DNA of 64,000 nucleotides from Sphaerisporangium rufum (lineage in GTDB: Bacteria > Actinomycetota > Actinomycetes > Streptosporangiales > Streptosporangiaceae). Position 1 is the first letter of the stretch; each line of letters opens with the position of its first letter. Location: contig NZ_BOOU01000065.1 of assembly GCF_016863395.1 (NCBI RefSeq), positions 1-64,000 of the forward strand, in the 5' to 3' direction. The position numbers were made by a program, and so were the translations under genes. This document shows, piece after piece, positions 48,371 to 52,989 of this stretch. A model generated the notes under the pieces. That model saw nothing but the letters and a program-made list of their open reading frames with translations. It ran no database searches and was not told the DNA's origin.

Positions 48371-50839
<2,469 letters not shown>

Positions 50840-50875
50840 GTCCCTCGGATCGTCTCGGCGGCCCCGCTCGGCCAT

Positions 50876-50902
50876 AAAGAAACCCCCCGTGTCCACGAGG
50901 GG
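50876..50902 (-). terminator. Intrinsic terminator in the leuS leader (attenuator)
   Basis: On the minus strand CCCCTCGTG pairs with CACGGGGGG (nine pairs, one G-T) and is followed by TTTCTTT. It ends one to two bases before a possible leuS start and 37 bases before the preferred one. A second, stronger stem, CCGCGTCG with CGACGCGG (50906-50940) plus an inner CCGGC/GCCGG, lies just upstream and contains the leader-peptide stop codon in its loop. Confidence 0.75.
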
Positions 50903-50922
50903 CGGCCGCGTCGTCCGGCGGA

Positions 50923-50970
50923 TCAGCCGGTCCGACGCGGCTCACCAAGGAGCAGGGTCCTGCCACGCAT
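50923..50970 (-). CDS. Leucine leader peptide upstream of leuS
   Basis: The 15-codon frame reads [15 protein letters not shown], with three consecutive leucine codons (CTG CTC CTT) and its stop inside the loop of a stable hairpin. There is no ribosome binding site, but the ATG coincides with the expected transcription start of the promoter at 50977-51006, so the message would be leaderless. This is the layout of ribosome-mediated attenuation: slow translation at the Leu codons when charged tRNA-Leu is scarce should change folding downstream. The antiterminating partner structure is not obvious. Confidence 0.7.
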
Positions 50971-50976
50971 AGCCCA

Positions 50977-51006
50977 AGGGTAGCGCAGCGGGCAATCGCC
51001 GGTCAT
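50977..51006 (-). promoter_or_regulatory. Promoter of the leuS leader
   Basis: On the minus strand ATGACC (51006-51001, near TTGACC) is separated by 18 bases from TACCCT (50982-50977). The -10 element ends six bases before the leader-peptide ATG, placing transcription start on its A. Confidence 0.65.
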
Positions 51007-51077
51007 ACCGTTCAGCCGCTCCCCCGGGTGGAGCGGGAAAACGGACATCACCCGACGCGAGCGACGTTAGATCCTCT

Positions 51078-51107
51078 GTGACCACTAATGTCCTTTTCGT
51101 TTACCCT
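51078..51107 (+). promoter_or_regulatory. Promoter for the proline-rich membrane protein gene
   Basis: GTGACC (51078-51083) and TACCCT (51102-51107) are 18 bases apart. The GTG at 51115 begins eight bases after the -10 element, so transcription may start on the start codon. The same -10 hexamer is used by the divergent leuS leader. Confidence 0.55.
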
Positions 51108-51114
51108 CTTCGTC

Positions 51115-52989
51115 GTGGCGAACTCCTACGAACCGGGACACGGCCCGGCCAACCCGGCGGCGGACCTGCCGATGCAGGACCCGCCGACCGACCCGACGGG
51201 CCTGAGGTTGCGCGGAGCATTCTCTGATTCTCCTGCGGACCACCCCGCTTCACATGAGATCATGCCGAGCACCCCCAATCCGGGCATGATGTCGAGAGGT
51301 TCCCGAGCGATGGCCCCTGAGCAGACCGGCCGGACCACGCGCCCCCCGGCATGGCCGGAGATGCCGCCGCCGCCTCCGCCGCCGTCCTCGGGATCCGGAG
51401 CGGGGACGCCCGGCCGGCGGGACGGGGGCCCCGGACGGGCCGGCCCGGCGGATACCGCCGAGCGGCCGATGCCGTCCGGCACGCAGCACGCGGGGCCGGT
51501 GGCGGCACGGGCCGGCATGGCTCCGCCGCCCGCCCCGGAGAGGTACGATTCCCGGCCCCCGCAGGGCCGGCCGCCGGCCGGAACCGGGCCCCGGCGCCCG
51601 CAGGAGCAGACCGGACCGCAGCACTTCCCGCCGCCGCCCGCCGGGCCGCGGCACCACCCGGCGCAGGACGGCGGGCCGTCCGGCCCCCGTACCGGGCCGC
51701 AGGGCGGGCCGGCCGGACCACCGCCCGGCGCCCAGTCCGGCCCGTTCACCGGACCGCAGACCGGACCGCACGCCAGGCCGCAGAGCGGACCCCCTACCGG
51801 ACCGTCGCAGACCGGCCCCCGTACCGGGCCGCAGACCGGACACCGTACCGGGCCGCAGAGCCGACCGCCGGCCGGACCGGGTACGGGTCCGCGGCCGGCG
51901 CCGCATCCCGGTCCGCAGGACGACCGGCGGTGGCGCCAGGCGCCGGACGGACGCCCGGCCGAGGCGCGCGGCGGCCCGCCGCCCTCCTACGTGCCGCCCG
52001 GCACCGAGACCACCGTTCGGGTGCCCGCCGGGACGGTCGCCGGGGCCGGTGGCGCGCCCGCGGCACGGCCGGCCACGCCGCCCGGGGAGGCGCACGATCC
52101 CTACAAGCCCTTCGTGACGGCGGGCCAGATCAGCGGGCCCAAGACCCCGCCGCCCGCCCGCCAGCAGGAACTGTGGAACACGGTCTTCGGCGAGAACTAC
52201 GAGGCCATCGGCGAGGAGCAGGAGGACGCGGCCGGCGGCCGCCGGGCGTGGCTGCCGGCCCTGGTCGCCTCGGCCGGAGTGGCGCTGCTCGCGGGCCTGC
52301 TGTGGGCGTTCCTGGCCGGGCCGCTCCGCCCGTCCACCGGCGGCGACGGGGGCCAGGAGGCCGCCGGCACCCCGAAGGCGTCCGCCTCGGCCTCGGGGCG
52401 CGCCGGCGCGACCCGGCCGAAGGTCCTCGCCCGGCTGCCGAAGTACCGCGGCACGGCCTCGCCGGTGGCGGGCACCGTGACCGATCCGGCGGCGGGGGTC
52501 TCCGTGCCGCGGCTCGGCGCGCCGTGGCGGCTGGACCAGCGCGGCGCGCAGGTGCGCACGTCCTTCGGCCTGACCACCCGCCAGTACGTTGCGGCCGGCA
52601 CCGACGCGACCGGCCGGCCCCGCTACGCCCAGCTGATGACCGGCCCGCTGCCGGAGAAGCTCGCCGGCAAGTACTCCGCCGACAAGCCGGCCGACCTCGC
52701 CCCGACGCTCAGCTCGGTGGCCTACTGGGCGCGGTTCAAGTTCTTCCCGGCGGGCAACACCGTGGTGAAGAAGGCCGAGCAGAACCTGACGTCCGGCGGC
52801 CGGCCGGCCCGGGTGGTGGTCTACGAGGTGGTGGCCGGCGACACCAGGACCACGCTGGTGGTCGGCGCGGTGAGCACCGGCGGCGCGCGGCCGGCGATCG
52901 TCTACATGTCGGTGCCGGACACCCGCAAGGCGCTGCTGCCGGACGTCAACACGGTGTTCGCGGCGGTCCGGCCGGCCGCGGCCGGCTGA
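51115..52989 (+). CDS. Pro/Gly/Thr-rich single-pass membrane protein, unknown function
   Basis: From GTG 51115 the protein has 624 residues. Codons 30-60 have unusually low GC in third position, so a start at ATG 51289 or 51310 remains possible. Roughly residues 80-290 are Pro-rich with many TGPQTGP and GPRTGPQ repeats, presumably cytoplasmic and disordered. A membrane helix (LPALVASAGVALLAGLLWAF) follows near 380-400. A compact extracellular domain of about 170 residues (SVPRLGAPWRLDQRGAQVR to the end) has no family I recognise. The fold is plausibly a cell-envelope sensor or assembly factor, but nothing proves it. Confidence 0.75.
   Translation: MANSYEPGHGPANPAADLPMQDPPTDPTGLRLRGAFSDSPADHPASHEIMPSTPNPGMMSRGSRAMAPEQTGRTTRPPAWPEMPPPPPPPSSGSGAGTPGRRDGGPGRAGPADTAERPMPSGTQHAGPVAARAGMAPPPAPERYDSRPPQGRPPAGTGPRRPQEQTGPQHFPPPPAGPRHHPAQDGGPSGPRTGPQGGPAGPPPGAQSGPFTGPQTGPHARPQSGPPTGPSQTGPRTGPQTGHRTGPQSRPPAGPGTGPRPAPHPGPQDDRRWRQAPDGRPAEARGGPPPSYVPPGTETTVRVPAGTVAGAGGAPAARPATPPGEAHDPYKPFVTAGQISGPKTPPPARQQELWNTVFGENYEAIGEEQEDAAGGRRAWLPALVASAGVALLAGLLWAFLAGPLRPSTGGDGGQEAAGTPKASASASGRAGATRPKVLARLPKYRGTASPVAGTVTDPAAGVSVPRLGAPWRLDQRGAQVRTSFGLTTRQYVAAGTDATGRPRYAQLMTGPLPEKLAGKYSADKPADLAPTLSSVAYWARFKFFPAGNTVVKKAEQNLTSGGRPARVVVYEVVAGDTRTTLVVGAVSTGGARPAIVYMSVPDTRKALLPDVNTVFAAVRPAAAG

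Follow-up and report, generated by a model that had tools for sequence, protein, structure and literature searches.

A leaderless leucine leader peptide and two abutting hairpins with fixed spacing upstream of leuS in Sphaerisporangium rufum and other actinobacteria: a probable transcription attenuator

Introduction

Attenuators of leuS, the gene encoding leucyl-tRNA synthetase, were predicted for Streptomyces coelicolor and S. avermitilis and were called classical (Seliverstov et al., 2005, PMC1262725), and from this prediction onwards a synthetase gene is no new candidate target of attenuation. The available part of that paper also notes missing attenuator parts and puzzling codon mutations of ilvB and leuA; as cited there, altering codons of the S. 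coelicolor ilvB leader was without effect, and changes in the leuA leader do not fit classical attenuation. In S. lividans, the peptide LeuL2 (MRAVRLLLSEPR*), encoded before leuS and followed by a hairpin and a U stretch, is described as leaderless on the basis of RNA-seq in the accessible text of PMC8079986.

Here, we describe the region upstream of leuS in Sphaerisporangium rufum, which lies on the minus strand of the window, that is, of the whole 64-kb stretch of DNA analyzed. An initial annotation had read this region as a ribosome-mediated attenuator, and the comparison with relatives supports this reading, since the Leu codons, the leaderless spacing, the stop codon within a hairpin and the terminator are conserved far outside the genus. 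Judged from sequence comparison, the leader very probably serves to raise the production of leucyl-tRNA synthetase in actinobacteria when charged leucine tRNA is short.

Anatomy of the leuS leader

The order of elements in the initial annotation (a -35-like hexamer, a -10, an ATG, a short ORF, a hairpin and a terminator) is borne out, each element lying where it had been placed:

51001-51006, minus strand: -35-like ATGACC (51006-51001), weak and poorly conserved in the genus
50977-50987, minus strand: conserved core promoter, TGCGC plus -10 TACCCT (50982-50977), identical in 10 of 11 genus members
50923-50970, minus strand: leaderless leader ORF of 15 codons, ATG at 50970, 6 nt past the -10, TGA at 50925-50923
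50947-50955, minus strand: regulatory Leu codons CTG CTC CTT
50942-50946, minus strand: 5-nt spacer GGTGA, of which GGTG is able to pair with CGCC, i.e., the linker plus the first 3 nt of the terminator
50905-50941, minus strand: hairpin P1, the proposed antiterminator, with a 9-bp stem GCCGCGTCG/CGACGCGGC and an inner stem
50904, minus strand: 1-nt linker between P1 and P2, an unpaired C
50876-50903, minus strand: intrinsic terminator P2 (hairpin 50903-50882) with TTTCTTT (50882-50876)
50841-50846, minus strand: GAGGGA, the likely leuS Shine-Dalgarno sequence
48371-50833, minus strand: leuS, leucyl-tRNA synthetase, GTG start (TIGR00396, 924.7 bits, cut-off 548.4)

ATGACC (51006-51001) and TACCCT (50982-50977) are separated by 18 nt. 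The promoter had been proposed from both hexamers; of the two, the -10 is conserved together with TGCGC across the genus (TGCGCTACCCT in 10 of the 11 members, TGCGCTACGCT in the other), whereas the -35 is poorly conserved among the same 11. The TGA of the leader ORF sits in the apical part of P1. The start of leuS is most likely the GTG at 50833, behind GAGGGA and 42 nt past the U tract; it is preferred to the ATG at 50839, which several relatives (L004, L007, L008, L012) have out of frame.

The 64-kb window holds a single site at which a -10 is followed after 6 nt by ATG or GTG and an ORF of 6-25 codons, and this site is the leuS leader, with its three Leu codons and terminator; 30 first-order Markov sequences contained a mean of 1.5 such ORFs, none of them with a Leu triplet. 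On the 5' side of the leader, at about 51050-51110 of the window and at the equivalent place in relatives, there is a conserved GGTCACAACGGATCTATCACC-like stretch. It falls between leuS and a divergent ORF at 51088, of whose promoter it is perhaps a part.

Conservation of the leader and its codons

The leader is present in all 11 genus genomes searched. A strict pattern detects it in 119 of 184 distinct leuS upstream regions and leaves 65 without it; this count is a lower bound, as the pattern misses L041 (one Leu codon) and L204 (different promoter spacing), and the 184 regions, drawn from genus, family, order, class and a named genome collection, are non-independent and skewed to close relatives. 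Two of 195 upstream regions, shorter than 150 nt, were excluded. One genome, G360, carries two leuS genes of different type, each with its own leader (L261, L262), whose products are 68% and 35% identical to the LeuS of the window over the compared stretch.

The distance from the -10 to the start codon is exactly 6 nt in 109 of 114 distinct leaders and 7 nt in the other 5, within a pattern that permitted 5-8 nt. The predicted transcription start is the A of the ATG. The initial annotation had proposed a leaderless message, and the claim gains from this spacing, which is conserved far beyond the genus, as well as from the S. lividans leader, reported as leaderless in the accessible text of PMC8079986. 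The second residue of the peptide is Arg in 95/114. The Leu run comprises three codons in 99 leaders, two in 14 and four in 1, and its final codon is CTT in 102 of the 114; CTT makes up 162 of 329 run codons, whereas three window genes use it for 4 of their 128 Leu codons.

Loss of the leader can also be followed. In a Microbispora-type clade of 15 loci compared by eye (L032, L034, L038, L039, L042, L060-L066, L074, L148 and L187), the promoter TGCGCTAnnnT is retained, the matching in-frame start codon is absent in 14 of the 15 (L061 retains ATG), the Leu run is shrunken or gone, and the U tract of the terminator is eroded. This joint decay of start codon, Leu run and U tract downstream of a kept promoter is evidence for an attenuator. 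In the Nocardiopsis and Thermobifida relatives, no leuS leader is detected by the strict pattern. A leader before the citramalate synthase gene cimA is retained in the absence of a leuS leader in Nocardiopsis potens (L299), Thermobifida fusca (L306) and three more genomes (L300, L302, L310).

Two hairpins and their spacing

The 80 nt from 50950 fold as P1 and P2 at -45.6 kcal/mol (z -3.65; 0 of 200 shuffles as good), and in this minimum free energy (MFE) structure the two hairpins are compatible and adjacent. Conditional on a loose spacing filter, which 17 of the 114 leaders failed before alignment, 45 of 52 diverse leaders were aligned (alignment A1), and 94.2% of the cells are paired, compared with 40-55% when the partners are slid by 1-3 columns. 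Both P1 and P2 are seen by covariation: two-sided changes occur in 12 of 17 pairs of A1 (shuffled mean 4.8, 0 of 500 shuffles as high), and within the 9-bp P1 stem 7 of 9 pairs show them, the remaining 2 being invariant. The P1 helix beats all 30 shuffles in 89 of 114 leaders and fails to do so in 25. In 110 leaders that were measured, P1 covers between 20 and 121 nt, with a median of 37; the stop codon begins within P1 in 94 of them and 1-9 nt ahead of it in 16, and P2 begins at least 20 nt past the stop. The stop within a hairpin followed by a terminator, as initially annotated, holds well outside S. rufum.

While the size of P1 and the codons vary, the spacer and the linker vary little. In A1, subject to the filter, the last Leu codon lies 5 nt from P1 in 44 of 45 leaders, and the linker between P1 and P2 is 1 nt in 40 and 0-2 nt in all 45. 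When maximal helices were measured in all 114 leaders, unfiltered, 105 had a spacer of 3-5 nt and 108 a linker of -2 to +2; after shuffling of the segment between the Leu run and the terminator, only 13% (spacer) and 23% (linker) fall within these ranges.

Related leaders upstream of cimA, ilvB and leuA

A covariance model, R1, was built from A1, which includes the window leader, so that the score of this leader is uninformative. R1 tallies, which include cimA and other leaders besides those of leuS, come to 79 of 80 family genomes (E <= 1e-3), 189 of 394 sampled class genomes (E <= 1e-4) and 19 of 246 genomes of a phylum sample. Gene context was checked for 92 loci, which are the best and hand-picked matches rather than a random draw and contain three duplicates (L240/L261, L241/L267, L250/L265) and the window's own locus (L252). 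Of these, 89 stand before leuS, cimA, leuA or ilvB: 62 before leuS genes encoding more and less similar LeuS types, 24 before cimA, two before leuA (L293, L294), and one (L295) before a small ORF followed by an ilvB fragment. L270 and L277 run off a contig end, and L287, inside an ORF, was rejected as a false positive. Six matches of the phylum sample fall outside the class, before leuS (L291, L292, L296), leuA (L293, L294) and ilvB (L295).

In addition to the leuS leader, the S. rufum genome contains three related leaders:

L253:1023-1117, contig C21: cimA leader, peptide MFYGLLIISRRAG*, with P1, terminator and the spacing of the leuS leader; 23 further cimA loci
L325:1306-1450, contig C58: leaderless ilvB leader, peptide MRTTGEAIAGLGRARLDGVVLRRRAGR*, with Val-Val-Leu, a 5-nt spacer, P1, a 1-nt linker and a terminator
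L254:1501-1595, contig C122, minus strand: leuA leader GTG-LRGLLLLSCRGEGL* (V-LRGLLLLSCRGEGL*), 6 nt past TAACGT

The gene behind the cimA leader matches TIGR00977 (573.7 bits, cut-off 450), and the leader itself has a spacer of 5 and a linker of 1. All but one of the 24 cimA leaders have a linker of 0 or 1, the exception having -1. Their spacer measures 4-5 in 18 cases; in the other six, where a Val codon after the Ile run was counted in, it measures 0-2, or 3-5 when taken from the last Ile codon. The ATG of the cimA leaders lies more than 6 nt from the likely -10, and they may carry a few untranslated nucleotides. Within the genus, the ilvB leaders, in which Val-Val-Leu precedes P1, show the 6-nt start distance in 10 of 11 (L324 was missed by the pattern), a spacer of 5 in 9 of 10 and of 4 in the other, and a linker of 1 in 10 of 10, although start distance and linker are less independent here, because promoter and terminator were located by typed motifs. 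The leuA leader L254 is the third, weak R1 match of the genome (E 0.02); it has a P1-like hairpin holding the stop codon, and no terminator is seen in its sequence. None of the window, L198, L253, L254, L263 and L295 matched an Rfam release 15 family at the gathering level.

Proposed mechanism and alternatives

The leader is probably a ribosome-mediated transcription attenuator of leuS that senses the charging of Leu-tRNA, an interpretation of sequence in which a ribosome would load on the 5' end as the RNA emerges. With ample charged Leu-tRNA, it would reach the stop codon within P1 and open this hairpin; P2, at least 20 nt past the stop, would then be uncovered, the terminator would form, and leuS would be off. 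With scarce charged Leu-tRNA, the ribosome would stall at the Leu codons, which end 5 nt ahead of P1, and P1 would remain intact. The helicase at the mRNA entry of the ribosome lies about 5 nt from the A site. The 5-nt spacer thus approximates this distance, so that P1 should survive a ribosome paused at any one of these codons and should begin to open when this ribosome takes its next step. As a stalled ribosome would spare P1 and a terminating one would break it, P1 looks like an antiterminator. Within the genus, an intact P1 could take 2-3 nt of the terminator base; in general, a helix 0-2 nt upstream may hinder the terminator by preventing the final pairs at its base from forming within the RNA exit channel, and RNA polymerase would read on into leuS. 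This block of closure in the exit channel is proposed because abutment is general and base sharing is not. To the anatomy, conservation, spacing and covarying hairpins seen in the alignments, the start site, stalling, the direction of the response and the antagonism of P1 and P2 are added as what we infer.

A purely classical attenuation, in which P1, lengthened through the spacer, would compete with the terminator for its basal nucleotides as a genuine alternative fold and would suffice alone, is unlikely, although the genus itself provides arguments for it. In the window leader, GGTG of the spacer pairs with CGCC, which includes the first three terminator nucleotides, and pre-empts three basal pairs; while the 3' arm of the terminator is not yet made, the extended P1 is the MFE structure (-38.0 vs -31.5 kcal/mol), and the full folds with and without the extension are 1.2 kcal/mol apart (-44.4 vs -45.6). 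The first nucleotide of the P2 5' arm is paired (P at least 0.86) before the 3' arm exists in 11 of 11 genus members, where P1 extension and terminator can share 2-3 basal nucleotides. The initial annotation, which saw no evident antiterminator fold, was correct for the MFE structure, but an extension of P1 in this leader could claim the three nucleotides at the terminator base; its suggestion of a possible departure from the classical mechanism agrees with hairpins that mostly abut rather than overlap. As a general rule, however, classical alternative pairing was rejected for lack of support outside the genus in a shuffled-partner test of 45 leaders and in masked-ribosome ensembles of 97. The overlapping extension is not above chance in A1 (23 of 45, shuffled mean 25.9), 54 of 106 leaders lack pre-pairing of the first P2 nucleotide although the spacer was left free, and the extension is masked, and so lost, when the ribosome has Leu2 or Leu3 in the A site. 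Equilibrium free-RNA folding, conditional on the spacing filter and covering 97 of the 114 leaders, revealed no general switch: with the ribosome absent, at Leu3, at Leu1 or at the stop, the terminator base is paired with a median of 0.94-0.95, and its pairing drops below 0.5 in only 12, 7, 7 and 2 of the 97, respectively.

These paired basal positions, which persist in most modelled states, together with the compatible, adjacent hairpins of the MFE structure, would also suit a P1 that aids the terminator through coaxial stacking or pausing; that stacking of P1 and P2 could even help the terminator counts against the proposed attenuator. A ribosome breaking P1 would then lower termination and ample leucine would raise leuS, which is the wrong direction for a synthetase gene, and it would be left unexplained why the Leu codons are placed where a waiting ribosome spares P1, so we regard this as very unlikely. 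Comparably improbable is a terminator with a leader ORF that is insensitive to leucine, either as constant damping or with the ORF merely recruiting ribosomes. The ilvB codon mutations of S. coelicolor without effect (as cited in the available text of PMC1262725) speak for it and argue for caution over the leucine response, but leader codons match the pathway of the gene in leuS, cimA and ilvB, the rare CTT is enriched in the leaders, and start, Leu run and U tract decay jointly. The idea of a T-box, a riboswitch or a LeuS-binding site with an incidental ORF has hardly any credibility. Around the leader (50400-51500), the sole Rfam match up to E 5 is weak (E 0.69, far below its gathering score) and lies outside the leader; no T-box matches up to E 5 in this interval, and no family reaches gathering across the whole window. 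On these results for locus and window, the T-box and riboswitch readings were rejected.

The ribosome-mediated attenuator may, tentatively, belong to a phylum-wide actinobacterial design that controls branched-chain amino-acid genes without requiring any base common to antiterminator and terminator. In it, the hairpin spared by a stalled ribosome, set 0-2 nt upstream of the terminator, would block termination through a clash with terminator closure in the exit channel. Its two defining distances would be, on the side of the ribosome, about 5 nt between the last regulatory codon and P1 and, on the side of the polymerase, about 1 nt between P1 and the terminator. The spacing common to leuS, cimA and ilvB leaders makes the question of the actinobacterial leader mechanism testable.

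Comparison with known systems

The closest relative of the window leader is the Streptomyces leuS attenuator, which likewise has a Leu triplet, a leaderless start (in S. lividans) and a hairpin and terminator before leuS, and which differs in genus and peptide; the window leader itself combines a Leu-triplet peptide, leaderless by its predicted start, with a hairpin and a terminator before leuS, as does the LeuL2 type. Three loci (L263-L265) encode a peptide identical to LeuL2 MRAVRLLLSEPR*, for which reason they are taken as Streptomyces, and they match R1 while being absent from its alignment. In their available parts, the texts of PMC1262725 and PMC8079986 make no mention of spacing or of abutting hairpins, and open-licence literature, covered by titles and the beginnings of abstracts, held no match to the spacing rule, the cimA leader or the abutment idea.

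Another actinobacterial example, the Corynebacterium ilvB-II motif, also has an uORF over P1, then a terminator P2, and branched-chain codons, but its antiterminator is formed by the P1 loop paired with the right shoulder of P2 (PMC10272879, accessible text); by comparison, the P2 base of the leuS leader stays paired in most ensembles. The LEU element of leuA is a Leu leader as well, though without a terminator and with a proposed pseudoknot and a base stem involving the leuA Shine-Dalgarno sequence (PMC1262725, available part). In the leuS leader, the terminator stands between the Leu run and the leuS Shine-Dalgarno sequence, the kinds of element that the proposed base stem of a LEU element would pair. 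The leuA leader of S. rufum (L254), with its leaderless -10 spacing and stop-containing hairpin, resembles that of S. lividans. The trp leader of Bacillus subtilis, as far as described in the accessible texts of PMC3913778 and PMC4347634, has mutually exclusive structures in tandem, which P1 and P2 would match. That leader is controlled by a protein (TRAP) and not by the ribosome. Its antiterminator and terminator overlap in a small shared stretch.

The attenuators of trp, leu, his and pheST resemble the window leader in their regulatory-codon peptide, in a stop codon placed to break one hairpin and in their intrinsic terminator. Their antiterminator shares an arm with the terminator, whereas here the overlap is 0-3 nt. 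A short ORF with regulatory codons, here a Leu run, and an intrinsic terminator before a structural gene are found as in those systems, and, going by position, a ribosome at the stop would disrupt P1 and spare P2. This kind of attenuator is known in Streptomyces; what is new is a fixed spacing that recurs in the leaders of leuS, cimA and ilvB.
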